The notes under the pieces: generated by a model
Told to the model about the DNA's origin: nothing
What the model saw: only the letters and a program-made list of their open reading frames with translations
The model's database searches: none
Shown: in pieces, positions 5,321-62,917 of the stretch
Layout: every line of letters begins with the position of its first letter
How positions within the stretch are numbered: position 1 is the stretch's first letter
Translations under genes and position numbers: made by a program
Assembly (NCBI RefSeq): GCF_022809125.1
Contig: NZ_JALGBI010000001.1
Span: 2,976,001-3,040,000 of the forward strand
DNA length: 64,000 nt
Origin: Variovorax terrae
GTDB lineage: Bacteria > Pseudomonadota > Gammaproteobacteria > Burkholderiales > Burkholderiaceae_C
Direction of reading: 5' to 3'

Positions 5321-6099
5321 TGCATCGATTCTATCGAGGCCACCACCTCGTCCAGCGTCGGACGTGACTCGCAAACAACACCGAAGCCCGCATCGCGCGC
5401 GGCCTGCGCGATACGCGGATGGGTGGCCAGCGCACGCACGCGCTCCCAGGATTGCGCGGGCAGCCCCTGCCGGAGATGGCCGATCGCCTCGGAGCTGCTG
5501 AACAGCCAGACCGAGCCGTCGCCCGCCGCCTCGCGCGCGGCGGCCTGCAGCGCGGCATCGAACCGCGGCGCGCGGCGTTCGTAGGCGGCCACGAAGTCGG
5601 CCGTGGCGCCCGCGGCCGCCAGTTGGCTGGCCAGCCAGTCACGGCCCACGCTGCGGCCGCTGCCATCGCTGCCGCGCACGATCAGCACCGGGTCGCCCGG
5701 CCGCACGCGCGGGCCGACGGCCTGCCACAGTGCCTCGGAGTCGAACTGGCCGGCGCCGGACCCGGGCTGATCGATCAGGGCTTCGGCCACGCCCGCTTCG
5801 CGCAAGGCCTGCGCGGTGCCGGGGCCGGGCGCCCACGCTCTTGTTTTGATAGCAGAAGATGACCAGGGGACGAGGACATCCGGTGGTTTTGATGCAAAAA
5901 AGTGGGTCACGGCATTGCCGCTGACGAACATGACGGCCGCATAGCCGCCAAGCTGCCGCCAAGCCGCCTGCAACGGCTGCAGATCGGCCACCGGGGCGAT
6001 GGCGATCAGCGGCAGCGCCAGCGCATCAAGGCCGCGCGCGGCCAGCTCATGCACCCACTGCTGCGCCTCGCGCTCGGGGCGGGTGACGACGACACGCAT
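5317..6099 (-). CDS. hemD: Uroporphyrinogen-III synthase
   Basis: A protein of about 260 residues that closes and inverts ring D of hydroxymethylbilane to form uroporphyrinogen III. The start MRVVVTRPEREAQQW is the usual HemD N-terminus, and FVSGNAVTHFF and GPGTAQAL are conserved family blocks. It starts 14 bases after hemC and its stop overlaps the hemX start. Residues about 66-87 are unusual: they are encoded by an AT-richer 65-bp stretch (5838-5902) that is one copy of the dispersed repeat described separately. This copy is read in the same orientation as the gene and gives KPPDVLVPWSSSAIKTRA, apparently a lengthened loop. The frame stays open, so the enzyme is probably functional. Confidence 0.9.
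   Translation of the reverse strand: MRVVVTRPEREAQQWVHELAARGLDALALPLIAIAPVADLQPLQAAWRQLGGYAAVMFVSGNAVTHFFASKPPDVLVPWSSSAIKTRAWAPGPGTAQALREAGVAEALIDQPGSGAGQFDSEALWQAVGPRVRPGDPVLIVRGSDGSGRSVGRDWLASQLAAAGATADFVAAYERRAPRFDAALQAAAREAAGDGSVWLFSSSEAIGHLRQGLPAQSWERVRALATHPRIAQAARDAGFGVVCESRPTLDEVVASIESMQ
5838..5902 (-). repeat. Dispersed repeat, copy A (inside hemD)
   Basis: About 65 bp, AT-richer than its surroundings. Read on the minus strand it starts with a TTTTTTGCA run, has GTCC twice in the core, then TGGTCAT, and ends TGCTATCAAAAC. It aligns along its length with the copies at 61535 and 62838. The ends are roughly inverted (TTTTGCA against TGC...AAAA). It is translated in frame within HemD. 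Confidence 0.7.
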
Positions 6100-6113
6100 G
6101 GGCCCGGGCCCGC

Positions 6114-7016
6114 TCAGCGCGCGCCGCCGGCCCGCAGCCGGGCGGCCACGTCCTCGCCCAGCGCGGCAGCGGCGGCCAGATCGGCCACGGCAGCGGCGGA
6201 GCGCACCCGCACCAGGGCGCCGCCGCCTTCGGGGTCGCCCCACGCGGCCTGCAGTTGCAGGTATTCGCCGCCGAAGGTGGCGAAAGCCGCCAGCGGCATC
6301 GAGCAGCTGCCGCCCATGGCGCGGCTGACCGCGCGCTCGGCGGCCACGGCCAGCCAGGTGGACTGGTGCGCCAGCGGCGCCAACGCGTCGAGCAGGTCGC
6401 GGCGGTCCGCCCGCACCTCGATGCCCAGGGCGCCTTGCCCCGCGGCGGGCAGCATCTGGTCGGGCTCGAAGGCATTGCGGATGCGCGGCTCCAGGCCCAG
6501 GCGCTTGAGCCCGGCCGCCGCCAGCACGATGGCGTCGTACTGCCCTTCGTCGAGCTTGCGCAGCCGGGTGTCGAGGTTGCCGCGCAGCGGCTCGATCTTC
6601 AGGTCCGGGCGCAGCGCGCGCAGCAGCACCACGCGGCGCAGGCTCGAGGTGCCCACCACCGCGCCGGCCGGCAGCTGGGCCAGCGCGGCGTAGCGGTTGG
6701 AGACGAAGGCATCGCGCGGGTCCTCGCGCTCCATCACGCAGGCCAGGCTGAAACCTTCGGGCAGGTCCATCGGCACGTCCTTGAGCGAGTGCACGGCGAT
6801 GTCGGCCCGGCCCTCTTCCAATGCCACTTCGAGTTCCTTGACGAACAGGCCCTTGCCGCCGACCTTGCTCAGCGAGCGGTCCAGGATCTGGTCGCCGCGG
6901 GTCGTCATGCCCAGCAGCGAGACGCTGTGGCCGCGCTGCTCCAGCAGCGTCTTGACATGTTCGGCCTGCCACAAGGCGAGGCGGCTTTCGCGGGTGGCGA
7001 TGGTCAACTTGCTCAA
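6114..7016 (-). CDS. hemC: Hydroxymethylbilane synthase (porphobilinogen deaminase)
   Basis: A 300-residue enzyme joining four porphobilinogen units into hydroxymethylbilane in the cytoplasm. The family blocks are intact: [15 protein letters not shown] at the N-terminus, [28 protein letters not shown] and [21 protein letters not shown] carries the cysteine (about residue 238) that binds the dipyrromethane cofactor. Length is normal. It is the first gene of the haem operon, with an 88-bp divergent gap to ppc that must contain promoters for both. Confidence 0.96.
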
Positions 7017-7104
7017 ACTCGTAACCTGTTTGTAAACCTTGGGGAAAAGTCGATGCTAGCATGCGGGCTGCCGAAAAATTAAGCAGCCCGAGGAAGCCCA
7101 TACC

Positions 7105-9918
7105 GTGGAAAAGCCCAGCACCAGCACGCCGTCGCGACGCGCCAAGGACAACGAACGCCCCCTGGTCGAGGACATCCGCCTGCTCGGCCGCATCCTGGGC
7201 GACGTGATCCGCGAGCAGGAAGGCGTGGACGCCTACGAGCTGGTGGAGCAGATCCGCAAGCTCTCCGTCGCGTTCCGCCGCGATGCCGACCAGGAGGCCG
7301 ACCGCGCGCTCAAGAAACTGCTCAAGGGCCTGTCGGGTGACCAGACGGTGAGCGTGATCCGCGCCTTCACCTACTTCAGCCACCTGGCCAACCTGGCCGA
7401 GGACCGGCACCACATCCGCCGCCGCGCCATCCACGAGCGCGCGGGCGACACCCAGGAAGGCAGCATCGAGGTGGCGCTGTCGCGCCTGCGCTGGGCCGGC
7501 ATCACGCCCAAGACGATCGCGCGCACGCTGGAGCAGAGCTACGTATCGCCAGTGCTCACCGCGCACCCGACCGAGGTGCAGCGCAAGAGCATCCTCGACG
7601 CCGAGCGCGACATCGCCCAGCTGCTGACGGCGCGCGACGAGATCAAGGCCCATGCGCTGCCCAAGGACGCGCTGGCGCCGCGCGAGCTGGCCGCCAACGA
7701 GGCGCAGATCCGCGCCCGCGTGATGCAGCTGTGGCAAACCCGGCTGCTGCGCTTTTCCAAGCTCACCGTGGCCGACGAGATCGAGAACGCGCTGAGCTAC
7801 TACGAGGCCACCTTCCTGCGCGAGATCCCCAAGCTCTATGCCGACCTGGAGCGCGAGCTGGGCCACCATCCGGTGCACAGCTTCCTGCGCATGGGCCAGT
7901 GGATCGGCGGCGACCGCGACGGCAACCCCAACGTGAGCGCACAGACGCTCGAGTACGCGCTCGGCCGCCAGGCCGACGTGGCGCTGCGCTACTACCTGAC
8001 CGAGGTGCACTACCTGGGCGGCGAGCTCTCGCTGTCGGCCCGGCTGGTGGGCGTCACGCCCGAGATGCAGGCCTTGGCACTGCGCTCGCCCGACACCAGC
8101 GAGCACCGCCAGGACGAGCCCTACCGGCGCGCGCTCACCGGCGTCTACGCGCGCCTGGCCGCCACGCTCAAGAACCTGACCGGCGGCGACGCCGCGCGCC
8201 ACGCCGTGGCGCCGCAGAACCCCTACGCCTCGGCCGGCGAGTTCCAGGCCGATCTGCGCACCATCGAGGACTCGCTGCTGGCGCACCATGGCGCCGCCAT
8301 CGTCGCGCAACGCCTGCACCCGCTGCTGCGCGCGGTGGAAGTGTTCGGCTTCCACCTGGCCACGGTGGACCTGCGCCAGAGCTCCGACCAGCACGAGGTC
8401 GTGGTGGCCGAGCTGCTGGCCGCGGCCCGCATCGAGCCCAACTACGGCCAGCTGCAGGAAGCTGCCCGGCAGGCGCTGCTGGTCAAGCTGCTCAACGATG
8501 CCCGGCCGCTGCGCGTGGTGGGCGCCACCTATTCGGCGCTGGCGCAGGGCGAGATCGCGATCTTCGAGACCGCGAAGCGGCTGCGCGAGCGCTTTGGCGC
8601 GCAGGCCATCCGCCACTACATCATCAGCCACACCGAGACCGTGAGCGATCTGCTCGAGGTGCTGCTGCTGCAAAAAGAGGTGGGCCTGATGCACGGCACA
8701 TTGGATGCGCCCGAGGCCACCCATGACCTGATCGTGGTGCCGCTGTTCGAGACCATCGAGGACCTGCGCAACGCCGCGCCCATCATGCGCGGCTTCTACG
8801 CCCTGCCCGGCGTGGCGCGGCTGGTGCAGCGCAGCGGCGCCGAGCAGGACATCATGCTCGGCTACAGCGACAGCAACAAGGACGGCGGCATCTTCACCAG
8901 CAACTGGGAGCTGTACCGCGCCGAGATCGCGCTGGTGGAGCTGTTCGACGAGCTCGCCAATTCGCACAACATCCAGCTGCGCATGTTCCACGGCCGCGGC
9001 GGCACCGTGGGCCGCGGCGGCGGCCCAAGCTACCAGGCCATCCTGGCGCAACCGCCCGGCACGGTGCGCGGCCAGATCCGCCTGACCGAGCAGGGCGAGG
9101 TGATCGGCTCCAAGTACGCCAACCCCGAGATCGGCCGGCGCAACCTGGAGACGCTGGTGGCCGCCACGCTGGAGGCCACGCTGCTGCAGCCGACCAAGCC
9201 CGCCACCAAGGCCTTCCTGGAAGCGGCGGCCCAGCTCTCGCAGGCCAGCATGGCGGCCTACCGCGCCCTGGTGTACGAGACGCCGGGCTTCAGCGACTAT
9301 TTCTTCGGCTCCACGCCGATCCGCGAGATCGCCGAACTCAACATCGGCTCGCGCCCGGCCTCGCGCAAGGCCACGCAGAAGATCGAGGACCTGCGCGCCA
9401 TCCCCTGGGGCTTCAGCTGGGGCCAGTGCCGCCTCACGCTGCCCGGCTGGTACGGCTTTGGCTCGGCAGTGGACGCTTTTTTGAACCAGAACGGCCCGCA
9501 GTCCAGGAAGGACGGTCTTTCCCTGCTACAAAAAATGTACCGCCAGTGGCCGTTCTTCCGCACGCTGCTGAGCAACATGGACATGGTGCTGGCCAAGAGC
9601 GACCTCGCGCTGGCCTCGCGCTATGCCGAGCTGGTGGGCGATGCGCGCCTGCGCAAGAAGGTCTTCACGGCCATCGAGGCCGAGTGGCACCGCACGGCCG
9701 ATGCGCTGACGCTGATCACCGGCGACAAGCAGCGCCTGGCCCACAACAGCGCGCTGGCCCGCTCCATCCGCCACCGCTTTCCCTACATCGACCCGCTGCA
9801 CCATCTGCAGGTGGAGCTGGTGCGCCGCTATCGCGGCGGACAAGGCGACGAGCGCGTGCAGACCGGGATCCACATCTCCATCAACGGCATCGCGGCGGGC
9901 TTGCGCAACACCGGCTGA
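7105..9918 (+). CDS. ppc: Phosphoenolpyruvate carboxylase
   Basis: A 937-residue enzyme that carboxylates phosphoenolpyruvate to oxaloacetate to refill the TCA cycle. Catalytic blocks are intact: [13 protein letters not shown] with the essential His near residue 154, [10 protein letters not shown] near 586, [14 protein letters not shown] near 628, and the C-terminal LRNTG. The start is a GTG at 7105 with GAGGAAG just upstream. Residues about 790-811 ([20 protein letters not shown]) are encoded by an AT-richer repeat copy at 9475-9536, just before the conserved [14 protein letters not shown] block. Possible promoter: TTGTAA at 7030-7035, with no clear -10. It converges on the TetR gene 18 bases downstream. 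Confidence 0.97.
9475..9536 (+). repeat. Dispersed repeat, copy B (inside ppc)
   Basis: About 62 bp, AT-richer at its ends. It begins TTTTTTG-N3-CAG and ends with the matching inverse CTG-N3-CAAAAAA, so it has clear terminal inverted repeats. The core (GGCCCGCAGTCC...GACGGTC) aligns with the other copies. It has the same orientation as ppc and is read in frame. Confidence 0.65.
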
Positions 9919-9936
9919 GGCCGGGCACCGCCGGAT

Positions 9937-10611
9937 TCAGGCCGGCGCGGCGGCGGCCACGCGGCGGTAGCGTTCGGGGTCGAACCGCAGGCCCACGCCG
10001 CGCAGCACCAGCCGGGTCACTTCCAGGCGCACCTTCTCGCGATCGATGGGCGCGTCATCGGGGCAGCGCGTGAAGTAACGCACCTGCACCTCGTAGTCGG
10101 CATAGTGCTGGGTCAGCGCCCAGATGTGGAACAGAAAGAAGAACGGGTCGATCGGGTCGATCCGGCCCTTGTGAACCCAGTTTTCGATGACCTTCACCGC
10201 GCTGTCCACCAGCGGCGTGCCCTCCTGCCAGATCTGGCGGATCACCGGCCCGCCGCGCATCACCTCGTTGCTGAACAGGCGCGAGATCTGGGGATAGTCG
10301 AAGGTGAAGTCCAGCTTGCGCCGGATCAGGCGCGTGATGGCGTCGCCCGGATCCACCCCTTCGTCCTCCTCGGCCAGCCCGATGTGGCCCCAGTGGCGCA
10401 GGGTCTTGCGCAGGATGGATTCGTAGAGCACTTCCTTGCTCTCGATGTAGTAGTGCAGCTGCTGCTTGGACATGCCCGCGCGCTCGGCAATGGCCTGGGT
10501 GGACGTGCCCTTCAGCCCGTGCTGGGAGAACTCGGCCAGCGCCGCGACGTAGATGACATCCATCATCTCCGCGCGCTTCTTCGCCAATGCACTGGCTCTC
10601 TGGTCTGACAT
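9937..10611 (-). CDS. TetR-family regulator, RutR-like
   Basis: A 224-residue protein with an N-terminal TetR helix-turn-helix (GTSTQAIAERAGMSKQQLHYY) and a C-terminal domain strongly resembling E. coli RutR/YcdC, with the phrases FDYPQISRLFSNEVM and HIWALTQHYADYEVQV. RutR senses uracil and controls pyrimidine breakdown. Whether this protein senses a pyrimidine is inference only. The ATG at 10611 is preferred over a GTG four codons upstream because GAGGG lies at suitable spacing. It is on the same strand as, and downstream of, the ABC importer cluster, so it may regulate that cluster. Confidence 0.85.
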   Translation of the reverse strand: MSDQRASALAKKRAEMMDVIYVAALAEFSQHGLKGTSTQAIAERAGMSKQQLHYYIESKEVLYESILRKTLRHWGHIGLAEEDEGVDPGDAITRLIRRKLDFTFDYPQISRLFSNEVMRGGPVIRQIWQEGTPLVDSAVKVIENWVHKGRIDPIDPFFFLFHIWALTQHYADYEVQVRYFTRCPDDAPIDREKVRLEVTRLVLRGVGLRFDPERYRRVAAAAPA

Positions 10612-10721
10612 GGCTACCCTCACCCTCCGTATGCTGCTTGCACTGAAACCCGGCGTCCGCGCCCGCCTGGGCGGCCGACGCGGCTGCGCGCCACTTTACA
10701 CGCCTGCGCCGGTTCGCGGCC

Positions 10722-11747
10722 TTACTTCTTTACCAGCCTGGCGCGCACGTCCAGGCCCACGCCCTTGTTCACGAAGCGGTCCGTGGCCAGCGTCTTCATG
10801 TCCACGTCGCCGGGCTTGAACACGCCAGCTTTCACCATGTCATCGACATAGCGGTTGAGCCGCACGAGGTTCAGCGCGCCGATGCCCTTGGTCAGCGCAT
10901 CGCCGGCGTCGATCATGCCCAGCTCCTGCAGTTTGGCGACTTCCTGGTCGAGCTTGTCGTCGGTCATCTCGGGGTTGTCGCGCCGGATCAGCGCGTAGGC
11001 GCCCTTTCGGTCGCCGTAGAGGTAGTTGTACCAGCCGATGGCCGAGGCGTCGATGAACTTCTGGATCAGCTCGGGGTTCTTCTCCACCATGTCGCGGCGG
11101 GCCTCGATCAGGTTGGCGTAGGCCTCCCAGCCGTTGTCGGCCAGCAGGAACACGTCGGTCTTCACGCCGTCCTTGGCCAGATACAGCGGCTCGGCGGTGG
11201 CGTAGGCCTGCTGCACCGATTTCTTGTCGGCCAGGAACGGCGCCATCGCGTAGTTGTAGGGCCGGTACTGCTCGTCCGAGAAGCCGTGGCGCGCCTTCAT
11301 CCATTGCCAGAAGCTGAACTGGCTGGCCTTGGCCACGTACATGGTCTTGGCGTTGCGCAGGTCAGCAAAGTTCTTGTACTCGCCGGCATGCGCCATCAGC
11401 GCCGTCGGGTCCTTCTGCATGAAGGCGCCCACCAGGATGGTCGGCTGCTTGCTCTTGTTGGCATCCATCATGCCGATGGTGCCGATCGGGATCATCAGGT
11501 CGATCTTGCCCGTCAGCATCAGCGGCCGCGGGTTGGCCTGGGGGCCGCCCTGCATGATTTCCACGTCGAGGCCATAGCGCTTGTAGGTGCCGTCGGCCAC
11601 CGCCTGGTAGAAGCCGCCATGGCTGCCCTGCGCCTTCCAGTTGGTGGCAAACACCACCTTCTGCTGGGCCTGCGCCATGCCGCCGGCCAGCAGCGCTGCG
11701 GCGGCCAGGCAGCCCAGCCCCGTGTTCCTCAGATGTCTCCAGATCAT
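10722..11747 (-). CDS. ABC importer periplasmic binding protein (SsuA/THI5/NMT1-like)
   Basis: A 341-residue protein with a Sec signal peptide ending AQA (about residue 27). Its mature fold is of the NMT1/THI5-like type: NWKAQGSHGGFYQAVADGTY followed by GLDVEIMQGGPQ, typical of binding proteins for aromatic sulfonates, thiamine precursors, nitrate analogues or pyrimidines. The ligand cannot be read from the sequence. A good Shine-Dalgarno (AAGGAGAC) precedes the ATG. It is the last transport gene of the minus-strand cluster after ATPase and permease, from which it is separated by the FAD oxidase gene and a hairpin-bearing gap. Confidence 0.88.
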   Translation of the reverse strand: MIWRHLRNTGLGCLAAAALLAGGMAQAQQKVVFATNWKAQGSHGGFYQAVADGTYKRYGLDVEIMQGGPQANPRPLMLTGKIDLMIPIGTIGMMDANKSKQPTILVGAFMQKDPTALMAHAGEYKNFADLRNAKTMYVAKASQFSFWQWMKARHGFSDEQYRPYNYAMAPFLADKKSVQQAYATAEPLYLAKDGVKTDVFLLADNGWEAYANLIEARRDMVEKNPELIQKFIDASAIGWYNYLYGDRKGAYALIRRDNPEMTDDKLDQEVAKLQELGMIDAGDALTKGIGALNLVRLNRYVDDMVKAGVFKPGDVDMKTLATDRFVNKGVGLDVRARLVKK

Positions 11748-11803
11748 CGATGTCTCCTTGGGTTGGTAACGCAGTGCCGCACCGGCATCTGTCGTCTAGG
11801 GCC

Positions 11804-11832
11804 CGTTCGCACGATTGTTGCCAGTGCGAACG
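11804..11832. promoter_or_regulatory. Long inverted repeat before the binding-protein gene
   Basis: Perfect 9-bp arms CGTTCGCAC (11804-11812) and GTGCGAACG (11824-11832) are separated by 11 bases. They lie between the FAD oxidase stop and the binding-protein start. It could be an operator or an mRNA hairpin adjusting binding-protein expression within the operon. No T-run follows, so it is not a normal terminator. Confidence 0.45.
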
Positions 11833-11859
11833 AGATGAAACGGCGCCCCTCCAGGCGCA

Positions 11860-13251
11860 TCACACGGTGGCCAGCGTCTTGCCCGGGTTCATCAGGCCCA
11901 GGGGATCGACCTGGCGCTTGAACGCCACCTGGTCGGCGCTCATTTCCTTGCGGCCGCTTTTCTCCAGGATGTAGACATGCGGATTCATGACGGTGCAGCC
12001 GTCGCGCTCCAGCTCGCCCATGATCTCGTCCAGCCGCTCAGCATCGAGGTAGCGCACCAGCGGCAGGCCCGACAGCCGCGGCGCGCCCGCGAAGCGCGAG
12101 AACTCGTGGTGCATCAGCATCTCGTCGCCATAGCGCTCCATCTGGGCCTCGATCAGGCCGGCGTCGAACGGCGCCGGCACCACCATCTGCAGGTAGGTCC
12201 AGCCGCGGTCGGTCTTGAGCGCCTGCAGCGTGGTGTGGTTGTAGGCGCATTCGTGCACCGGCGGCAGCCCGGCGGCGGCCATCTCCGCCTCGGTCTTGCA
12301 CAGCCCGCGCCGCCCACCCAGCGATGCAGCCAGCTCGAAGAACTTCTGCTCGTCGCGCGGGTTCACCAGCGCGAACATCGCATCGGCCGAACCGTCGAAG
12401 TGCGCAGACAGTTCGCTGTAGTACGGCGCGAAGCGCCTGTCCACGCCGCTGAGCAGGAACACGTCGATCTCGGAAGCCAGCACGGCCGCGCCGAAGCGCA
12501 CCACGTCGCCATAGCGCGGGAACAGCGCGATGCAGTGCAGCCATGGCTCGGCCGGCACCAGGCCCAGCTCCAGCTCCGTGATGATGCCGTTGGTGCCCCA
12601 GGCGTGGTGCACCTTCTCGATGTCGGCGCCCGACAGGGTCAGCATGCGCGGCGACGCCTCGATCGTGGCCACCCGGATGGACCGGATCGTGCCCGACTCC
12701 TTGAGGATGCCGTGGCGCACCGAGCCGATGCCGGCCGAGCCGCCCGCGATGAAGCCGCCCACCGTGGCGATGCGCATCGTCGACGGGTAGATCATGAGCT
12801 GCTGGCCGGTCTCGCGCGCGGCGTCCAGTACCGCTTCCACGCGCGCACCAGCCTGGGCGCGCACCTGCCCCGGCGCCACCTCCAGCACACGGTTCATGCG
12901 TGTCATGTCCAGCACGATGCCGCCCTGCAGCGGCACGGCCTGGCCGTAGTTGCCCGTGCCGCCGCCGCGCACCGTCAGCGGCAGGCGGTGGCGCGCGGCC
13001 GCCGCGGCCACACGCAGCACCTGCGCCTCGCTGTCGGGCTGCACCACGATCTCGGCGCGGCAGTCCTTCAGCTGCTCGTCAAGCACCGGGCTGTACCAGT
13101 AGAAGTCGCGGGCCTTGAGGCGCAGGTCCTTGGCGTCGGTCAGGCAGGCGATGCCCTCGATGTCGCGTTGGAAAGCCGCCAGCGCCTGCGGGTGGACGGC
13201 GGTTCCAGCCGCCTGGGTGTCGTCAGTGTTCACGCTTGAGCTCGCTTTCAT
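11860..13251 (-). CDS. FAD-binding oxidoreductase (FAD-linked oxidase, GlcD/VAO type)
   Basis: A 463-residue flavoprotein with a PCMH-type FAD-binding domain in the N-terminal half: VVQPDSEAQVLRVAAAAARH, LTVRGGGTGNYGQAVP, YPSTMRIATVGGFIAGGSAGIGS. It has a C-terminal FAD-linked oxidase domain ending in the usual QVDPLGLMNPGKTL. The family oxidises hydroxy acids or related alcohol substrates. The substrate is unknown. The gene starts inside the end of the permease gene (29-base overlap), so it belongs to the importer operon and probably acts on the imported compound or its product. Confidence 0.88.
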   Translation of the reverse strand: MKASSSVNTDDTQAAGTAVHPQALAAFQRDIEGIACLTDAKDLRLKARDFYWYSPVLDEQLKDCRAEIVVQPDSEAQVLRVAAAAARHRLPLTVRGGGTGNYGQAVPLQGGIVLDMTRMNRVLEVAPGQVRAQAGARVEAVLDAARETGQQLMIYPSTMRIATVGGFIAGGSAGIGSVRHGILKESGTIRSIRVATIEASPRMLTLSGADIEKVHHAWGTNGIITELELGLVPAEPWLHCIALFPRYGDVVRFGAAVLASEIDVFLLSGVDRRFAPYYSELSAHFDGSADAMFALVNPRDEQKFFELAASLGGRRGLCKTEAEMAAAGLPPVHECAYNHTTLQALKTDRGWTYLQMVVPAPFDAGLIEAQMERYGDEMLMHHEFSRFAGAPRLSGLPLVRYLDAERLDEIMGELERDGCTVMNPHVYILEKSGRKEMSADQVAFKRQVDPLGLMNPGKTLATV

Positions 13252-17784: not shown

Positions 17785-18528
17785 TCAGCGCGCGGCGATG
17801 GCCTCGCGCACCGCCGTGAGCTGGCGGCGCGATACCGCGAGCAGGTCGTCGATGCCGGCCAGCCGCACCGCCCAGCCTTCGCCCTCCTCGGGGTCGAAAT
17901 GCTTCTCCAGCACCCGCACGGCGCGGCGCGCCACCAGAGCATTGCGGTGCACGCGCATGAAATGCGCGGCGTGGCGCTCTTCCAGCTCGCTCAGCGAGCC
18001 GTCGAGGATGTAGCTCTTGCCAGCCGTGCGCACGGTCACGTACTTGAGTTCGGCCTTCAGGTACAGCACGTCGCCCAGCGGCACGCGCTCGGTGCGGCCA
18101 CGATCCTGGATGATCAGCATTTCCTGAGGAAAATCGGGCCGACGTCCTTGTCCCGCGGTCATTTGGCGCTCTACTTTTTGTAGCGCCGCCTGCAGCCGCT
18201 CCAGCCGCACGGGCTTGGTGAGGTAGTCCACCGCTTCCAGATCGAACGCCTGCACCGCATGCTCGGCATGGGCCGTGACGAACACCACGGCCGGCGGGCG
18301 CGGCAAGGTGCGCAGGGTCTGCGCCAGCGCCAGGCCGTCGGCACCGGGCATGCGGATGTCCAGCAGCGCCGCATCGAAGGCATCGCGGCGCAGCAGCTCG
18401 ATGGCCTCGACCGCATTGGCAGCCTCGCCGCCCAGGCGGGCCGCGGGCGCGCCGCAGTCGCCCAGCAGCGTGCGCAGCCGCGCGCGCGCCAGCGCTTCGT
18501 CGTCGACGATCAGAACCCTGAGGCTCAT
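17785..18528 (-). CDS. algR: LytTR-type response regulator, AlgR-like
   Basis: A 247-residue regulator. Residues 1-118 form a receiver domain (acidic pair DDE, phospho-acceptor Asp in ALLDIRMPGADGL, Lys in YLTKPVRLERL). Residues 140-245 form a LytTR DNA-binding domain (DVLYLKAELKYVTVRT, MRVHRNALVARRAV). GGAGGTG five bases before the ATG at 18528 fixes the start. It follows an AlgZ/LytS-type kinase gene, and the block sits beside argH. In pseudomonads argH, algZ (fimS), algR and hemC are neighbours, which supports the AlgR assignment. The linker between domains is encoded by a copy of the dispersed repeat (18123-18187), antisense to the gene but kept in frame. Confidence 0.85.
   Translation of the reverse strand: MSLRVLIVDDEALARARLRTLLGDCGAPAARLGGEAANAVEAIELLRRDAFDAALLDIRMPGADGLALAQTLRTLPRPPAVVFVTAHAEHAVQAFDLEAVDYLTKPVRLERLQAALQKVERQMTAGQGRRPDFPQEMLIIQDRGRTERVPLGDVLYLKAELKYVTVRTAGKSYILDGSLSELEERHAAHFMRVHRNALVARRAVRVLEKHFDPEEGEGWAVRLAGIDDLLAVSRRQLTAVREAIAAR
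18123..18187 (+). repeat. Dispersed repeat, copy E (inside algR-like gene, antisense)
   Basis: About 65 bp whose plus strand contains GAGGAAAATCGGGCC, then GTCC twice, GCGGTCATT, and a terminal hairpin-forming stretch with CTAC-TTTTT-GTAG inside GGCG...CGCC. The first half is almost identical to copy C at 61535. It codes, on the minus strand, for residues about 114-135, the REC-LytTR linker. Confidence 0.7.
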
Positions 18529-28061: not shown

Positions 28062-28086
28062 ATGCCGCCGCCAGGCGGCATTTTTT
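28062..28086 (+). terminator. Intrinsic terminator after the DegP-type gene
   Basis: An 8-bp perfect stem, ATGCCGCC (28062-28069) and GGCGGCAT (28074-28081), with a 4-nt loop followed by a run of T. It ends the two-component/cardiolipin/protease transcription unit before the macroglobulin gene. Confidence 0.85.
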
Positions 28087-28133
28087 CGCCTCGAAAATCG
28101 GCTACGCTGTCCCGCTTGAACAGGAGGGACAGC

Positions 28134-31100
28134 GTGGCCAGAATCATCCAACAACTCCTCGCCACCTGCTGCGCCCTGGGCGCCCTGCAGGCCCAGGCGC
28201 TGCAAATCACCAGCCTCACGCCCCAGGGCGAAGTGGCGCGCATCCGGCAGGTGGTGGCCAAGTTCGACGACAGCGCCGTCAACTTCGGCGACCCCAAGGC
28301 GCCGGCCCCGCTGGCGCTGAGCTGCAGCGATGCCCAGGCCACCCAGGGCAATGGCCGCTGGATCAGCGACCGCGAGTGGGCCTTCGAGTTCGAGAACGAC
28401 CTGCCGCCGGGCGTGAGCTGCGCGCTGCAGCCGCGTTCAGGCTTCAAATCGCCCAAAGGTCAAGAGCTGGCGGTCACCGGCAGCTATAAATTCAATAGCG
28501 GCGGCCCGTTCGTGCAGAACATCCGGCCCGGCAGCTACCAGCGCATCGACGAAGAACAGTTCTTCCTGCTGCAGCTCAACGGTGCGGCCACGCTGGCCAG
28601 CGTGCAGGCCAATGTCTGGTGCGCGGTGGATGGCCTGGGCGAGCGCGTACCGGTGCGCCTGATCGACGGCAAGGACCGCGCCGAGCTGCTCAAGTCGCAG
28701 GGGCTGGACAAGGCCGCCGAGAAAGACCCGCTGCGCTTCATCACCCTGGCCTGCAACCGCCGCCTCACGCCCTCGGCCAAGCTCCAGTTGGTCTACGGCA
28801 AGGGCGTGAGCACGCCCAGCGGCGTGCCCAACTCGGTGGAGAAGCGCTTCAACTACCAGGTGCGCGAGCCGTTCGAGGCCAGCTTCAGCTGCGAGCGCGA
28901 GAACGCCCAGGCCGCCTGCCTGCCGATCCGCCCGATGCGCCTGGGCTTCAACGCGCCGGTGCCGCGCAAACTGGCCGAGGCGATCCGCCTCAAGTCAGAC
29001 AAGGACCAGTTCAAGCCCAGCTTCGACCAGGAAGAAGGCGACGGCGACAGCCTGGTCAACGGCGTGAGCTTCAAGCTCATCTTCCCCGAGCAGACCCGCT
29101 TCACGCTGGAGCTGCCCAAGGACTTCAAGGACGCCTCGGGCCGCACGCTGCGCAATGCCGACAACTTTCCGCTCAAGCTCGCCACCGGCCCGATGCCGCC
29201 GCTGGCCAAATTCGCGGCCGCGCCCTTCGGCATCGTCGAGCGCTTTGCCGAGCCGGACTCCGGCCCTGCCTCGCCCGCACTGCTGCCTGTGACCCTGCGC
29301 AACGTGGAGCCGGCGCTGCAAATCAAGGGCCTCGCACCCGGCGCGGCGGCCAATGCCGGTGGCAAGGTCAGCGACCTGCGCCCCGGCACCGATGCCGAGA
29401 TCATCGCCTGGTTCCGCAAGGTCCAGCGCTACGACCAGTTCACCGTGCCGCGCCGCCAGGCCGCGCGCGACGTGCAGGGCCCGCTACCCAAGGTGCTGGA
29501 GGAGCGCGACAAGGACGAGGTGCAGTCGCGCATGGTCTCGCTGCTCGCCGGCCAGCCCAACGTGAAGACGCTGGATCTGCCCAAGCCCGCGAACAACGAC
29601 CCGCGCCCGTTCGAGGTGGTGGGCATCCCGCTCACGCCGGGCTTCCACGTGGTGGAGATCGCCTCGCAGAAGCTCGGCGGCTCGCTGCTGGACGAGCGCT
29701 ACGGCGGCGGCCGCACGATGTACGTGCGCAGCTCGGCGCTGGTGACCAACCTCGGCGTGCACTTCAAGCTCGGCCGCGAGAACGCGCTGGCCTGGGTCAC
29801 CACGCTGGACAAGGGCAAGCCGGTGGCCGGCGCGGCGGTGCGCGTGTCCGACTGCCGCGGCAAGGAGCTCGCCACCGGCACCACCAATGCCCAGGGCCTG
29901 GCCGAGATCAAGGGCCTGTCGCCCGAGGCGCCGCAGTGCGGCAGCGGCGACGGCGAGGACTACCGCTCGGCCTACTTCGTGAGCGCGCGCAGCAAGGACG
30001 CCGGCGGCACCGAGGACCTGGCCTTCACCTGGAGCGACTGGTACCGCGGCATCGAGCCCTGGCGCTTCAACGTGCCCACCAGCCGCGAGGCCCAGCCCGA
30101 CCAGCGCGCCCACACCATCTTCGACCGCACGCTGCTGCGCGCCGGCGAGACGGTGTCGATGAAGCACCTGATCCGCACCGAGACCAGCCAGGGCTTCGGC
30201 CTGCCCGATGCGCAGCCCGCCACGCTGGCCATCACCCATGTGGGCAGCGGCCAGCAGTACACGCAGCCGATCGTCTGGCGCAAGACGGCCACCGGCGGGC
30301 TGAGCGCCGAGAACAGCTTCCAGATTCCGCCGGCTGCCAAGCTCGGCGTCTACCAGGTGGAGCTGCGCAGCGGCGGCGCGCGCGCGCGCAGCTTCACCAC
30401 CGGCGAGTTCCGCGTCGAGGAGTTCCGCCTGCCGGTGCTCGAAGGCCGCGTGGCGCCGGTGGAGAAAAAGGCGCTCATCAACGCCAAGGCCGTGCCCACC
30501 GAGGTGCAGATCAACTACGTGGCCGGCGGCGGCGCGGCCAACCTGCCGGTGCGCGTGTCGGCCCTGGTGCGCGGCAAGTCCCTGAGCTACAGCGACTACG
30601 ACGAGTTCAACTTCTCGCCGCCGCGCGGCAACCGGGGCACCACGTCCGAGGGCGAAGAGGAAGCCAATGCCGGCCAGGACCAGCGCGTGATCGCCGACAA
30701 GCTGCCGCTCACGCTGGACCGCAACGGCGCGGGCAAGCTCACCATCGGCGACGTGCCGGCCGCCAGACAGCCGCAGGAGCTGCTGCTGGAAGCCACCTAT
30801 GCCGACCCGAACGGCGAGGTGCAGACCCTGCGCAGCACCGCCACGCTGTGGCCCGCGGGCGTGGTCGCCGGCATCAAGACCGAGGGCTGGGTCTCGGCCA
30901 GCCAGAAGATCCGCTTCCAGGCGCTGGCGCTGGACCTCGGCGGCAAGCCCCAGGCCGACGTGGCGCTGGAGGTGAAGGCCGTGGCCCGCATCACCACCTC
31001 CAGCCGCAAGCGCATGGTGGGCGGCTTCTACAGCTACGACAACAAGACCGAGACCAAGGATCTGGGCAGCGTCTGCAGCGGCAAGAGCGACTCGCGCGGC

Positions 31101-39356: not shown

Positions 39357-41605
39357 GCGCACGCGCCCTGCTCCGCCCCCACGCCGTGGCCGCCTGCCGC
39401 GCCGGACTGGCTGGCGTGCTGCTGGCAGCCACGCACCTGCCGGCCCATGCCTTGCCCAGCTTTGCCGAAGTCCGGCAGGAATTTCGCCCCTCCGACACCT
39501 TGATCCTCTCGCGCGAAGGCGAGGTGCTGCAGCGCATCCGCACCGATGCCACGGTGCGCCGCGGCCAATGGGTGGCGCTGGCCGACGTGTCGCCGGCCCT
39601 GCGCACGGCCCTGGTACTGAGCGAGGACCGGCGCTTCTGGGAGCACAGCGGCGTGGACTGGCGCGCGGTGTCCTCTGCCGCCTGGGGCAACCTGTGGAAC
39701 CAGAAGACGCGCGGCGCCTCCACGCTCACCATGCAGCTCGCCGGCCTGCTCGACGGCGACTGGCGCCAGGGCCCCGGCGGCCGCAGCGTGACGCAGAAGC
39801 TCGGCCAGGCGGTGGCCGCGCAGGTGCTGGACCGGCGCTGGCGCAAGGACCAGATCCTGGAGGCCTACCTCAACGTGGTGCCGTTTCGCGGCGAGATCGT
39901 GGGCATCGACGCGCTCTCGCGCACGCTGTTCGGCAAGGCGCCGCACGGCCTGGATGACCGCGAGGCCGCCGTGGCCGCGGCCCTGGTGCGCGCGCCCAAT
40001 GCGCGGCCGCAGCTCGTGGCGCAGCGCGCCTGCGGCGTGCTCCGGGCCCTGCAGCCGGCCGGCGCCGCGCGCGCGGACTGCGAGGGCCTGGACCTGTTTG
40101 CCACTGCGGCGCTGCAGCGCAAGGCCTTCGACGCCAGCGAGGGCATCGCGCCACACGCGGCGCGCCGGCTGCTGGCCAGCCGCACCGGCCGCGCCGACAC
40201 CGTGAACTCCACCCTTTCCGCCCCGCTGCAGCGGTTTGCCACGGAAACCCTGCAGCGCCAGCTGCGCGAGCTGCACGGCCGCCATGTGGAGGACGGCGCC
40301 CTCGTGGTGCTGGACAACTCCAGCGGCGAGGTGCTGGCCTGGGTCGGCTCCTCGGGGAGCTTGAGCGCCGCGGCCGAGGTGGACGGCGTCACCGCGCCGC
40401 GCCAGGCCGGCTCCACGCTCAAGCCCTTTCTCTACGCCCAGGCCATCGCCGAGCGGCGCCTCACCGCGGCCTCGCTGCTGGAGGATTCTTCGGCGCAGAT
40501 CCCCACCGCCAGCGGCCTCTACATCCCGCAGAACTACGACCGCCAGTTCAAGGGCTGGATCTCGGTGCGCACCGCGCTGGCCGCCTCGCTCAACGTGCCG
40601 GCCGTGCGTACGCTGGTGATGGTTTCGCCCGACGCCTTCCACCACCAGCTGCGCGCCGTCGGCCTGCCGCTGCGCGAAACCGGCGGCTACTACGGCTACA
40701 GCCTGGCGCTGGGCAGCGCCGAGGTGCCGCTGCTGGGCCTGGCCAACGCCTACCGCACACTGGCCAACGGCGGGCGCTTCAGCCCCACCTCGCTCACGCC
40801 GGTGCAGCGGCCCCCCACCTTCACGGCCGCGCTGGATGCGCGCGCCGCCTTCATCGTGGCCGACATCCTGAGCGACCCCAACGCCCGCGCCCGCACCTTC
40901 GGCACCGACAGCGTGCTGGCCACGCGCTTCTGGACGGCGGTGAAGACCGGCACCAGCAAGGACATGCGCGACAACTGGGCCGTCGGCTTCTCGCAGCGCT
41001 ACACCGTGGGCGTGTGGGTCGGCAACGCCGGCGGCGCGCCGATGTGGGACGTGAGCGGCACCAGCGGCGCGGCGCCGGCCTGGGCCGCGGTCATGAACTT
41101 CCTGCACCGCCGCGCGCCCAGCCGCACGCCCACGCCGCCCAGCGGCCTGGTGCAGGCGCAGGCGCAGTTCGGCCCGCAGCTCGAGGCGATGCGCCGCGAG
41201 TGGTTTTTGCAGGGCACGGAGCAAACCTCGTTCGCTATCAATTCAATAGCAAACAATGACCGCAGGACCTGGACCTCCGGCCAAAAACATACTCAAACCG
41301 GCGAAATGGGGCCGCCCGGCCGCATCCTCGCCCCCGCGCCGGGCACCATCGTCGCGCTGGACCCCGACATCCCGCCCCACCGCCAGCGCCTGAGCTTCAG
41401 CGCCGAAGGCGCGGACCTGCGCTGGCTGATGGACGGCAAGCCGCTGGCCCGGGGGCCACAGGCCCAGTGGCTGCCCTGGCCGGGCCGGCATGTGGTGCAG
41501 TTGACGGATGCCGGCGGCCGGGTGCTGGACGAGGTGCGCATCGAGGTGCGCGGCGCCGGCGTGCGCCCCGCAGGGAAAACCCCGACCGGCCGGAAAGCCG
41601 ACTGA
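39353..41605 (+). CDS. pbpC: Penicillin-binding protein 1C
   Basis: A 750-residue bifunctional peptidoglycan synthase. A signal or anchor segment lies at residues 12-33. The glycosyltransferase domain has EDRRFWEHSGVDW near 91 and GASTLTMQLAG near 122. The transpeptidase domain has active-site STLK near 353, NVPAVR and KTGTS near 531. A C-terminal BiPBP_C domain covers about 655-740. Start GTG 39353 overlaps the LysR stop. PBP1C is commonly paired with a bacterial alpha-2-macroglobulin, which here lies 5 kb upstream. The linker between transpeptidase and BiPBP_C is encoded by a dispersed repeat (41233-41297). A strong terminator follows. Confidence 0.95.
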   Translation: MSARALLRPHAVAACRAGLAGVLLAATHLPAHALPSFAEVRQEFRPSDTLILSREGEVLQRIRTDATVRRGQWVALADVSPALRTALVLSEDRRFWEHSGVDWRAVSSAAWGNLWNQKTRGASTLTMQLAGLLDGDWRQGPGGRSVTQKLGQAVAAQVLDRRWRKDQILEAYLNVVPFRGEIVGIDALSRTLFGKAPHGLDDREAAVAAALVRAPNARPQLVAQRACGVLRALQPAGAARADCEGLDLFATAALQRKAFDASEGIAPHAARRLLASRTGRADTVNSTLSAPLQRFATETLQRQLRELHGRHVEDGALVVLDNSSGEVLAWVGSSGSLSAAAEVDGVTAPRQAGSTLKPFLYAQAIAERRLTAASLLEDSSAQIPTASGLYIPQNYDRQFKGWISVRTALAASLNVPAVRTLVMVSPDAFHHQLRAVGLPLRETGGYYGYSLALGSAEVPLLGLANAYRTLANGGRFSPTSLTPVQRPPTFTAALDARAAFIVADILSDPNARARTFGTDSVLATRFWTAVKTGTSKDMRDNWAVGFSQRYTVGVWVGNAGGAPMWDVSGTSGAAPAWAAVMNFLHRRAPSRTPTPPSGLVQAQAQFGPQLEAMRREWFLQGTEQTSFAINSIANNDRRTWTSGQKHTQTGEMGPPGRILAPAPGTIVALDPDIPPHRQRLSFSAEGADLRWLMDGKPLARGPQAQWLPWPGRHVVQLTDAGGRVLDEVRIEVRGAGVRPAGKTPTGRKAD
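41233..41297 (-). repeat. Dispersed repeat, copy F (inside pbpC, antisense)
   Basis: About 65 bp. On the minus strand: TTTGAG, a T-run, GGCCGGAGGTCC-N-GGTCC, GCGGTCATTG, TTGCTAT and the palindrome GCTAT-N7-ATAGC. It is very close to copy C at 61535. It encodes, in the opposite orientation, residues about 627-648 of PBP1C (FAINSIANNDRRTWTSGQ), in the interdomain linker. Confidence 0.75.
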
Positions 41606-59163: not shown

Positions 59164-59177
59164 ATCTTTTCCAGGCA

Positions 59178-59206
59178 ATCATAGAAACCCCTTGACCTCC
59201 CATCAA
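59178..59206 (-). promoter_or_regulatory. Promoter of the dipeptidase operon
   Basis: Minus-strand -35 TTGATG (59206-59201) and -10 TATGAT (59183-59178) with a 17-bp spacer, located between the two IclR-type operator sites, 66 bases upstream of the dipeptidase ATG. Confidence 0.55.
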
Positions 59207-59219
59207 ACTTCATGAAAAT

Positions 59220-59236
59220 GTTCCGCATTACGGACC
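59220..59236. promoter_or_regulatory. IclR-type operator, site 2
   Basis: GTTCCG-N5-CGGACC on the plus strand, the same flanking hexamers as site 1, centres 73 bp apart (about seven helical turns). It lies directly upstream of the dipeptidase -35 and 14 bases before the preferred IclR start, so one regulator could control both directions. Confidence 0.6.
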
Positions 59237-59250
59237 ATTTGAGAAAAACC

Positions 59251-60024: not shown

Positions 60025-60207
60025 AGCCGCGGCGCCGCTGCATGGACTGGAAATCCACCAAATCCTGCACATAAGGCCGGTGGCGCCGGCGCGCGCCCTG
60101 CGAGACAATGCCCGCACAGGCAGCCTCCTGGCCGGGTCACGGCCGCGGCACCGCCGCGCCCGGGTCCGCCGCCGGCTTTCGGTTTCCGTTCGTCCAAAGG
60201 CCTCTGT

Positions 60208-61497
60208 ATGACCACAACGCACTACACCCCGCAGGAGCGCCGCAAGCGCATCTTCGCCATCGTGGGGGCCTCCTCGGGCAACCTGGTCGAGTGGTTCGAT
60301 TTCTACGTCTACGCCTTCTCGTCGATCTATTTCGCGGCCTCGTTCTTTCCCAAGTCGGACCCGACGGTGCAGCTGCTCAACACCGCGGGCGTGTTCGCCG
60401 CGGGCTTCCTGATGCGGCCGATCGGCGGCTGGCTGTTCGGGCGCATCGCCGACCGGCGGGGCCGCAAGACCTCGATGGTGATCTCGGTCACCATGATGTG
60501 CGCGGGCTCGCTGATGATCGCCTGCCTGCCCACCTACCACAGCATCGGCGCCTGGGCGCCGTTCCTGCTGCTGGTGGCGCGGCTGTTCCAGGGCCTGTCG
60601 GTCGGCGGCGAATACGGCACCACGGCCACCTACATGAGCGAGGTGGCGCTCAAGGGCCAGCGCGGCTTCTTCTCGTCGTTCCAGTACGTGACGCTGATCG
60701 GCGGCCAGCTGCTGGCGGTGCTGGTGATCGTGGTGCTCGAGCAGCTGCTCTCCGAGGCCGAGCTCAAGGCCTGGGGCTGGCGCATCCCGTTCGTGATCGG
60801 CGCCATCACGGCGGTGGTGGCGATGCAGCTGCGCCGCCAGCTGCACGAGACTTCCAGCGCCGAGAGCCGCGGCAGCCGCGAGGCCGGCACCGTCGCTGCG
60901 CTGTTTCGCGACCACAAGGCCGCCTTCTTCACGGTGCTGGGCTACACGGCCGGCGGCTCGCTGATCTTCTACACCTTCACCACCTACATGCAGAAGTACC
61001 TGGTGAACACCGTGGGCCTGCCGATCAAGACCAGCAGCTACGTGATGACCTGCGCGCTGTTCGTCTACATGTGCATGCAGCCGCTGTTCGGCATGCTGTC
61101 CGACCGCATCGGGCGGCGTAACAACATGCTGCTGTTCGGCGCGTTCGGCGCCTTCGCGACGGTGCCGATCCTGACCGCCCTGCAGCACGTGGCCAGCCCC
61201 GTGATGGCCTTCGTGCTGATCATCGCGGCGCTGGCGATCGTGAGCTTCTACACCTCGATCAGCGGCATCGTGAAGGCCGAGATGTTCCCGCCCGAGGTGC
61301 GCGCGCTGGGCGTGGGCCTGGCCTACGCGGTGGCCAATGCGATCTTCGGCGGCTCGGCCGAGTACGTGGCACTGGGGCTCAAGTCGGTCGGCCACGAATC
61401 GGCCTTCTACTGGTATGTGACGGTCATGATGGTGGTGGCCTTCCTGGTGGCCCTGCGGCTGCCGCGCCAGGCGGCCTACCTGCACCACGACCCCTGA
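60208..61497 (+). CDS. MHS-family MFS permease (KgtP/ProP-like)
   Basis: A 429-residue protein with 12 membrane helices. [17 protein letters not shown] is the metabolite:H+ symporter signature (helix 1). [14 protein letters not shown] is the conserved 2-3 loop, and [17 protein letters not shown] is the helix 5 block. The family takes up 2-oxoglutarate, citrate, proline or similar carboxylates. It follows the IclR gene by 183 bases and may be the inner-membrane uptake route for the compound processed by the divergent operon (inference). Confidence 0.92.
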
Positions 61498-61534
61498 GGC
61501 ACGGCCGGAGCCCCGGCAGCCGCCGCACGCGCTC

Positions 61535-61600
61535 GTTTTTGAGCAAAATCGGGCCGAGGTCCTGGTCCAGTGGTCATTGCTTGCTATCAAATCAGGAGTA
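61535..61600 (+). repeat. Dispersed repeat, copy C (upstream of dinB)
   Basis: The most complete and only intergenic copy. TTTTTGA and GCAAAATCGGGCC open it, GAGGTCC-T-GGTCC forms a direct repeat, then GTGGTCATTG, TTGCTATCAAAT. The ends are imperfect terminal inverted repeats (TTTGA-GCAA against TTGC-TA-TCAAA). It ends about 60 bases before the dinB start. Confidence 0.75.
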
Positions 61601-61660
61601 ACCAGCCCACCACTTCCCCACGCCCGGCAGGGCCGGCGCGGCGGCGGCACAATCCCCAGC

Positions 61661-62917
61661 GTGACGACCGAGCCTGCCCCAGCCGCCCCCGCGACGCCCG
61701 CCTTGCCCCGGCGCATCGCCCATCTCGACATGGATGCGTTCTACGCCTCCGTGGAGCTGCTGCGCTACCCGCAGCTCAAGGGCCTGCCGGTGGTGATCGG
61801 CGGCGGCCGGCGGAAGGCCGACGAGGTGCTGGACCAGGGCGCCGGGCTGCCGGTGGAGCAGTTCCCGCGGCTCAAGGACTACGTGGGCCGCGGCGTCATC
61901 ACCACCGCCACTTACCCAGCGCGGCAGTTCGGCGTGGGCTCGGCCATGGGGCTCATGAAGGCCGCCAAGCTGTGCCCGCAGGCGATCCTGCTGCCGGTGG
62001 ATTTCGACGAGGTGCGGCGCTACTCGCGCCTGTTCAAGAGCCTCATCACCGAGATCGCGCCGGTCATGGAGGACCGCGGCGTGGACGAGGTCTACATCGA
62101 CTTCACCCACGTGCCCGGCGGCCAGCGCGACGGCGGGCGCGTGCTGGCGCGGCTGATCCAGAGGAGCATCTTCGAGAAGACCGGCCTGACCTGCTCGATC
62201 GGCGTGGCGCCGAACAAGCTGATCGCCAAGATGGCCAGCGAGTTCAACAAGCCCAACGGCATCTCCATCGTCTACGAGGACGACCTGCAGGCGAAGATCT
62301 GGCCGCTGCCCTGCCGCAAGATCAACGGCATCGGCCCCAAGGCGGAGGCCAGGCTCACCCACCTGGACATCCGCACCATCGGCGAGCTGGCCGCCAAGCC
62401 GCGCGAGTGGCTGGTCGAGCACTTCGGCAAGGCCTACGGCGCCTGGATGAACGACGCCGCCTGGGGCCGCGACAGCCGCCCCGTGGTGACCGAGAGCGAG
62501 CCGGTGTCGATGAGCCGCGAGACCACCTTCGACCGCGACCTGCACGCGGTGCGCGACAAGGCCGAGCTCGGGCGCATCTTCACCTGGCTGTGCGAGAAGC
62601 TCGCGGAAGACCTGCAGCGCAAGGGCTACGTGGGCAGGACCATCGGCATCAAGCTGCGCTACGACAACTTCAAGAGCGTGACGCGCGACCAGACGCTCGC
62701 GCACTTCACCGCCGATGCCAAGGCCATCCGCCACACGGCGGGCCTGTGCCTCAAGCGCGTGCCGCTGGACCAGCGCCTGCGCCTGCTGGGCGTGCGCGTG
62801 GGCACGCTGGCGACCGTGGCCGAGGCCGCCGATCTGGAGAAAAAAGAGCAGGAGGTCCGCGCCCGGCGGTCATCTTCCGCTATGGATTCCATAGCATTGA
62901 CGGACCAGCTGTTCTGA
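61661..62917 (+). CDS. dinB: DNA polymerase IV (Y family)
   Basis: A 418-residue error-prone polymerase for translesion synthesis. Catalytic acidic residues lie in HLDMDAFYASVE near 23 and GVDEVYIDFT near 141. CSIGVAPNKLIAKMAS is the conserved palm block, KINGIGPKAEARL the helix-hairpin-helix, and a little-finger domain follows. Start GTG 61661 (no strong ribosome-binding site). The end is odd: residues about 392-413 (KKEQEVRARRSSSAMDSIA) are encoded by a dispersed repeat copy, directly before the terminal TDQLF, which may act as the clamp-binding motif. A second repeat copy lies 60 bases upstream. No clear LexA box is seen. Confidence 0.9.
   Translation: MTTEPAPAAPATPALPRRIAHLDMDAFYASVELLRYPQLKGLPVVIGGGRRKADEVLDQGAGLPVEQFPRLKDYVGRGVITTATYPARQFGVGSAMGLMKAAKLCPQAILLPVDFDEVRRYSRLFKSLITEIAPVMEDRGVDEVYIDFTHVPGGQRDGGRVLARLIQRSIFEKTGLTCSIGVAPNKLIAKMASEFNKPNGISIVYEDDLQAKIWPLPCRKINGIGPKAEARLTHLDIRTIGELAAKPREWLVEHFGKAYGAWMNDAAWGRDSRPVVTESEPVSMSRETTFDRDLHAVRDKAELGRIFTWLCEKLAEDLQRKGYVGRTIGIKLRYDNFKSVTRDQTLAHFTADAKAIRHTAGLCLKRVPLDQRLRLLGVRVGTLATVAEAADLEKKEQEVRARRSSSAMDSIALTDQLF
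62838..62900 (+). repeat. Dispersed repeat, copy D (3' end of dinB)
   Basis: About 63 bp: GAGCAGGAGGTCC, GCGGTCAT, TTCC and the fully palindromic GCTATGGA-T-TCCATAGC. It is read in the same orientation and same frame as copy A in hemD (both encode SSSA in the same place), and is in frame with dinB. Confidence 0.7.

Follow-up and report, generated by a model that had tools for sequence, protein, structure and literature searches.

The stretch of DNA examined here, a window of 64 kb from the 4.93-Mb genome of Variovorax terrae (C1:2976001-3040000), contains seven copies (A to G) of a repeat of ~65 bp that follow one shared pattern. Six of them are embedded in frame in hemD, ppc, an algR-type response regulator gene, a macroglobulin gene, pbpC and dinB, in both orientations, and one is intergenic; host-gene identities were checked with NCBIfam and Pfam, the name algR being taken from a source. 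All seven had been proposed in an initial annotation made from the sequence, and each was found again within a few bases of its original position or exactly there. When the model was built from the remaining six copies, every held-out copy was recovered at E values between 6.9e-14 and 3.9e-3 (the weakest being B), with the top non-members at 0.015-1.1. A model built from 104 other copies of the genome gave held-out scores of 29.6-62.1 bits, versus 9.2 bits for the top non-member anywhere in the window.

Copy A (5831..5902, minus strand) lies in hemD (5317-6099, minus) in the orientation of the gene and scores 54.5 bits, or 51.5 when held out. Copy B (9475..9542, plus; 30.0 bits held out), which is weak or incipient and lies in ppc (7105-9918, plus), and the weak copy G (28434..28503, plus; 29.6 bits held out), in a bacterial alpha-2-macroglobulin gene (28062-34106, plus), are the weakest of the seven. 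Two copies occupy linkers between domains, each in the orientation opposite to its gene: copy E (18118..18187, plus; 39.1 bits held out) falls between Response_reg and LytTR of the response regulator (17785-18528, minus), in the REC-LytTR linker, and copy F (41227..41300, minus; 52.6 bits held out) falls between Transpeptidase and BiPBP_C of pbpC (39352-41605, plus). Copy D (62829..62900, plus; 48.7 bits held out) lies past IMS_C at the C-terminus of dinB (61577-62917, plus), and the intergenic copy C (61533..61606, plus; 62.1 bits held out) begins 36 nt past the stop codon of a major facilitator superfamily (MFS) transporter gene (60208-61497). The linker and C-terminal positions agree with the first reading of the sequence, as does the base composition, with a GC content of 46-58% in the copies versus 68-73% in the surrounding 2 kb.

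The dinB copy stops directly before the terminal residues DQLF (window 62838-62917), which we take to resemble a beta-clamp-binding motif. A similar arrangement was observed in four dinB carriers of other genera (G014, G012, G002 and G020), where element-like sequence was recognised by eye.

Copy number and anatomy of the element

Searching the whole genome for GTCCNNGTCCNNNGGTCATT with at most two mismatches yielded 246 matches (127 forward, 119 reverse), compared with 10 for the reversed pattern. The initial annotation had named as one conceivable outcome that no further copies above chance would be found; instead, an even sample of 864 kb, composed of the window and 40 evenly placed stretches of 20 kb, contained 105 copies that scored at least 18 bits, and its reversed sequence contained no match of 10 bits or higher. 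We thus estimate ~600 copies per genome, or ~120 per Mb.

The element consists of a 5' block (TTTT..AAAnnGGCC), a middle of ~28 bp (GGAGGTCCnnGTCCnGCGGTCATTGnn in this genome) and a 3' block (GCTATnnAATnnATAGC). Its core columns comprise a T-rich start, an A/T run, a GGCC-like box, GTCC-nn-G(T/C), GG.C.T and GCTAT..W-rich..ATAGC. Six columns are fixed in 105/105 copies (GT at 28-29, GCT at 52-54 and A66), and certain other columns are close to random across the same copies. The total information content is ~57 bits, of which the middle contributes 24; locating 600 sites in the genome needs 14 bits.

A terminal palindrome or hairpin had been proposed for some copies, and hairpin-like arms do exist. 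Across the 105 copies, however, the opposite arms do not covary, and pairing between their columns does not exceed expectation. The top twelve covariations link columns one or two positions apart, and distant columns vary nearly independently. A structured RNA was considered and rejected: no Rfam match at gathering scores was found in the window, the arms do not covary, and copies occur in both orientations inside genes. Pairwise identity among copies averages 57% and reaches at most 86%, the maximum under column shuffles averaging 78% and never exceeding 83%; by this comparison, the family contains no subfamilies and hardly any young duplicates. In a separate observation, some Acidovorax-type copies (L177, L136, L143 and L195) are near-perfect palindromes over most of the element and are matched on both strands (AATAGCTGCCAGCGCTT...AAGCGCTGGCAGCTATT).

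Placement in genes and at stop codons

The sampled copies were next compared with gene calls made by a codon-usage script, in which starts are approximate. The description of these repeats as living inside genes is true of six window copies but not of the genome, where just 41 of the 105 copies lie inside called genes, 34 span a gene edge and 30 lie between genes. Since coding sequence makes up 86% of the genome, the copies avoid genes (P 1e-28). Outside genes they gather at stop codons: 37 of these 64 copies start between -20 and +15 nt from a stop codon, 19 of the 37 overlapping it by up to 20 nt, and 18/64 start 0 to +15 nt past the stop, versus 6% under random placement in gaps, an expectation that applies to this last range only. 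Inside genes the reading frame is restricted, with phase 0 in 18/22 same-strand copies and phase 1 in 12/19 opposite-strand copies. The phases preferred inside genes are the frames that are open in most copies (77/101 and 76/101, with 4 of the 105 left out as not anchored). Counts per 20 kb agree with a Poisson distribution. A replication-strand bias was considered and rejected, the copies dividing 27/21 and 28/29 relative to GC skew.

Host genes with and without the element

Comparison with orthologues showed that the repeats are not clean insertions. Protein lengths were counted over rows in the correct frame, wrong-frame query rows, including the window's own algR, being left out. At algR, 11 carriers were compared with 13 non-carriers, which differ in length by +1 to -3 amino acids (5 at 0, and 10/13 within one residue). 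At ppc, 3 carriers stand against 78 non-carriers, 32 of which show a difference of 0 and 62 of which lie within one residue. Response-regulator homologues span 244-252 amino acids among the 120 matches listed, the window's protein having 247, and the element-encoded AALQKVER is largely conserved in 26 aligned response regulators. The codons of ALQKVER in the window (GCG CTA CAA AAA GTA GAG CGC) include CTA, CAA, AAA and GTA, whose shares among their synonyms in this genome are 0.5%, 9%, 11% and 1%, a joint synonymous frequency of 5.7e-7. The orthologues are equally long; 12 of the 17 whose codons were read spell CTA CAA AAA, and the other 5 use other synonymous spellings.

A flank-anchored DNA comparison of 677 pairs of element and relative, dominated by few sites (chiefly ppc and algR), gave 0 as the commonest length difference, and differences of -65 to -80 bases did not form a class. 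The other host genes behave differently. Among 37 hemD carriers and 37 non-carriers, the latter are shorter, most often by 5-7 amino acids, and pbpC carriers, as judged by eye, exceed outgroups by ~12-18 residues; both differences are smaller than one element. The dinB tails, compared by eye with slightly differing end points, measure 28-29 residues in carriers and from ~5 to 47 in non-carriers, and this wide variation leaves dinB without a decision on insertion.

These lengths bear on whether the repeats are old and decayed insertions, like Rickettsia palindromic elements (RPEs) or miniature inverted-repeat transposable elements (MITEs), that are still translated in frame. According to the accessible text of PMC10969869, RPEs lie in unrelated genes and are translated with them in frame, and the initial annotation named them as the parallel. 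In-frame translation is indeed common to both, the copies here are AT-rich, at hemD and pbpC the carriers exceed many non-carriers in length, and two isolated pairs in the flank-anchored comparison differ by -77 and -82 bases. The insertion itself did not hold up: the extra DNA that such elements would bring is missing at algR and ppc and in the 677 pairs, and near-identical copies hardly occur. Moreover, RPEs are ~150 bp long and inserted, whereas the elements described here lack pairing covariation and lie mostly outside genes, and neutral decay would neither hold columns invariant in 105 copies nor swap only the middles across a genome. We therefore regard insertion of this kind as quite improbable. 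Of what the initial annotation had expected of an insertion family, hundreds of copies and copy-free orthologues were both found, but defined insertion junctions were not found at algR and ppc.

A different repeat occurs in the same ppc loop as copy B in a Rhodoferax metagenome-assembled genome (L178; ppc gene 10001-13021), where ~15 extra in-frame residues (RPEPVEGLPKVSTGSARTD region) do look inserted. It is distinct from the ~65-bp family, and its spelling resembles that of a palindromic repeat common in proteobacteria.

Outer blocks follow the site and middles follow the genome

At the pbpC, hemD, algR and dinB sites of other genera, the outer blocks are recognisable and the middle differs. 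An orthologous copy is present in 36 of 73 other aligned hemD genes, and element-like sequence with other middles was recognised by eye in ~8 of 17 other aligned pbpC orthologues. Relative to the 36 orthologues, the window's hemD copy has an identity of 0.640 in the 5' block, 0.318 in the middle and 0.784 in the 3' block, compared with 0.498, 0.606 and 0.661 relative to other copies of its own genome. The orthologous middles are no closer to it than those of unrelated foreign copies (0.317). Similarly, the 3' block of the window's algR copy is 0.956 identical to that of 10 orthologues.

The pattern extends beyond the window genome. From a set of 233 hits, reduced to 224 by removing 9 overlapping ones, we selected genomes with a hemD copy and at least two other copies. 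In these 28 genomes, the hemD middle had an identity of 0.557 to the other copies of its own genome, 0.470 to other copies of other genomes and 0.500 to its orthologues. This genome effect was reached in 0/2000 permutations, and none was present in the outer blocks (1134/2000 and 532/2000). At algR, in 11 genomes, the middle was 0.515 identical to same-genome copies and 0.448 to other copies of other genomes (21/2000 permutations); the outer blocks again did not follow the genome. By eye, the ppc copies of three genomes each have a middle that resembles the middles of their own genome, and two relatives, G042 (G[CT]CCCCGTCAAATGGTCATT) and G063 (ACCCAGCGTCAAAnGGTCATT), form a graded dialect series with the window genome. 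Spacing stays nearly fixed while the middles differ from genome to genome.

The outer blocks are thus inherited site by site, and the ~28-bp middle is a genome-specific dialect that has changed in place. The initial annotation had noted that finding the same residues in distant genera would point to shared ancestry; such residues were found in the conserved outer blocks and not in the middle, which shared ancestry leaves unexplained. Gene conversion from a few master copies could rewrite the middles of older elements and leave the outer blocks as they are, as observed. Such conversion appears very improbable to us: the genome contains no group of near-identical copies, and distant columns vary nearly independently.

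Distribution among genomes

The dialect of the window genome is abundant in that genome only (246 matches versus 10 in the control) among 149 genomes, G042 having 28 matches versus 5 for the reversed control. An exact scan of named genomes for this dialect gave 0 matches. A looser pattern built on the shared ends matched 30 of 90 genomes of the family, the window genome included, and none of the 59 genomes that represent other families of the order, with the reversed control at 0 throughout. This pattern recovers just 18 of the ~600 copies of the window genome, so that genomes with 0 matches may still carry copies. In a set covering the class (369 genomes), one match each was found in 10 genomes that do not belong to the family, versus 6 genomes with a match to the reversed control. 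The family of repeats is thus present in many Comamonadaceae genera and does not rise above the control level outside Comamonadaceae.

Around ppc, 39 of 80 named contigs carried at least one element at a 14-bit cut, including contigs labelled Polaromonas, Rhodoferax, Acidovorax, Ramlibacter, Curvibacter, Hylemonella and Paracidovorax konjaci; none was found on the fetched ppc-region contigs of Delftia, Limnohabitans, Caenimonas and Diaphorobacter. G063 carries 18 elements in 100 kb (4 of these in 40 kb not chosen for known matches), and G042 carries 12 in 80 kb (an unchosen 20 kb beside its transposase gene, described below, gives 4); both densities are skewed upward because several of the stretches were picked for holding a known match. 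In a genome of another family of the same order (G090), we observed 12 matches to the dialect of the window genome with at most two mismatches, 1 match to the reversed control and 0 to the general pattern.

A REP-type transposase as a possible agent

Hundreds of short copies with hairpin-like arms recall the repetitive extragenic palindromic (REP) sequences, and the elements might be non-autonomous substrates of the genome's single-copy REP-associated tyrosine transposase (RAYT), a Y1 transposase. The window genome does contain a single Y1_Tnp match. The RAYT gene of several genera has a single element 8-30 nt away, which scores at least 20 bits in G010, G035, G071 and G072 and less in the others, and the window genome's own RAYT gene is followed, by eye, by a weak element remnant at most. 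Since elements follow stop codons generally, a RAYT-adjacent copy may represent one ancestral event.

Co-occurrence of the transposase and the repeats breaks down in both directions. G044 has a RAYT that is 82% identical, yet 80 kb drawn from two of its contigs show no element, and the element-rich G063 has a RAYT that is only 43% identical, with no model match within ~500 nt. An association with PF01797, present in 22/22 genomes with at least three general hits versus 48/68 others (Fisher 0.0024; counts read by hand from tables, relatedness ignored), was rejected as a sensitivity effect because 87 of the 90 family genomes have a RAYT homologue. Young copies and insertion scars are to be expected of a transposase; algR and ppc show no insertion, young copies are hardly found, and this disfavours transposition. 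In addition, the GTAG tag that precedes the palindrome of REP sequences, as given in the accessible text of PMC8266576, is not prominent in the consensus here, and the dialects change in place. A REP-type transposase thus fits poorly as the agent, and we consider this explanation improbable.

Apart from this, the ends of RAYT are similar across much of the family, with GGGGTCAGATTCCAATTA before the gene and GATATGTCCCC..AATTGGAATCTGACCCCAATTA after it (by eye; L101 1400-2330 and L233-L261), and in many genera an element-like stretch was seen by eye between these similar ends.

Relation to known repeats and motifs

Parts of the family have probably been glimpsed before. In the accessible text of a statistical screen, GCTTAT(N)5AAGCG (114 copies in Acidovorax ebreus) and ATAGCT(N)22CAAAAG (125 copies in Polaromonas naphthalenivorans) were both listed as potential novel motifs without an explanation, mostly intergenic near gene ends, and Rhodoferax ferrireducens was the genome with the largest number of motif pairs (PMC5217627). 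Judged by their wording, the Acidovorax ebreus and Polaromonas naphthalenivorans motifs are probably fragments of other dialects of the ~65-bp family. The same text reports them as isolated statistical motifs, without the full element, dialects, orthologous sites or a function. The beta-proteobacterial repeat element (BRE), known from Comamonadaceae and relatives and at times located in coding sequence, is described in the accessible text as ~90 bp long and GC-rich, with 69% GC in Bordetella, often tandem and with at most 29 copies (PMC3110155); by this description alone, it is a different repeat. In the literature searched, with subscription papers and supplements outside its scope, neither the element as a whole nor its dialects or orthologous sites were found described, and papers searched for named Comamonadaceae genera contained no mention.

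The closest likeness is to the DNA uptake sequences (DUS) of Neisseriaceae and the uptake signal sequences (USS) of Pasteurellaceae. These are about 9-12 bp long. According to the accessible text of PMC3630211, they occur at high copy number in and between genes, form lineage dialects around a constant core within a single bacterial family, and are thought to build up by a bias in uptake and recombination. The elements described here are likewise over-represented on both strands (127/119 versus 10 in the control), lie in and between genes (41/34/30), form genome dialects (0/2000 at hemD and 21/2000 at algR) and change by substitution in place at the algR and ppc sites, these being few sites, with hemD and pbpC also gaining length. 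They differ in being ~65 bp long with fixed spacing and in occurring at ~120 per Mb, whereas DUS and USS number thousands per genome, and in belonging to a different bacterial family.

A possible recognition site maintained in place

The explanation that we favour, tentatively and at somewhat less than even confidence, is that the repeats are genome-wide recognition sites of ~65 bp that evolve and are maintained in place, with uptake-like spread as the most likely mechanism. A sequence-specific DNA-binding component would read the site, its specificity for the middle would drift between lineages, and matching variants would then spread site by site, most likely through biased import and recombination of site-bearing DNA, as for DUS and USS. 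Host proteins would be reshaped only where this is tolerated, or the change would be absorbed by synonymous codons. Besides the dialects, we count in favour of such a site its 57 bits, compared with the 14 needed for location, and its placement at stop codons. We favour an uptake-like drive because hundreds of dispensable sites could follow one specificity without transposition.

Several observations weigh against this explanation. No reader protein was found. The gene comEC, taken to represent DNA import machinery, is present in the window genome and in 84 of the 90 family genomes, which agrees with uptake, but being nearly universal it does not separate carriers from non-carriers; in G042, comEC covers about 241 of 803 residues before a contig end cuts it (L311, G042:C11 end), and a PF03772 search of the rest of that genome (~40 contigs) gave no further comEC match. 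The window's algR middle retains some likeness to its orthologues, with an identity of 0.594 to own copies, 0.333 to foreign copies that are unrelated and, in between, 0.414 to the orthologues. Across the 11 genomes compared at algR, the identity of the middle to orthologues (0.534) is similar to its identity to same-genome copies (0.515). Since hemD and pbpC carriers are longer, some gain in length went with those copies, and the two isolated pairs that differ by -77 and -82 bases also count against it. The independent sites tested for length are few, and all relatives compared lie outside the genus of the window genome, so that recent gains are out of view. Finally, the site is far longer and sparser than known DUS and USS.

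The elements could alternatively be sites bound by a protein that organises the chromosome or acts in recombination or repair. Selection on the cell, rather than biased DNA import, would then keep each site, and the specificity of the protein would drift between genera. The in-place and dialect evidence fits such a protein too, as do the six columns fixed in all sampled copies and the Poisson-like spacing. The even division relative to GC skew speaks against it, however, as does an information content far beyond what location needs, and it is hard to see a selection strong enough to re-specify together hundreds of sites in and after unrelated genes. We hold this alternative to be unlikely, although it is the most credible of those considered.

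Returning to the favoured uptake-like reading, the elements might then represent a third, independent lineage of self-spreading DNA marks, whose ends stay constant while a replaceable centre of ~28 bp is reworded at hundreds of loci as a putative reader changes, a proposal to which we give slightly less credence still. To our knowledge, such marks are otherwise found in Neisseriaceae and Pasteurellaceae only. If this is true, dialect-bearing genome marks that evolve in place would also occur in a large family of environmental bacteria, where the site is far longer and its parts differ in how they evolve; the same sites, bearing different middles in many genera, offer a natural experiment. It would also caution against reading every in-frame repeat inside a gene as an insertion. 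The marks may account for odd linkers and C-termini in Comamonadaceae proteins: if the proposal holds, protein linkers and gene ends would have been reshaped as a by-product of the rewording of the marks.

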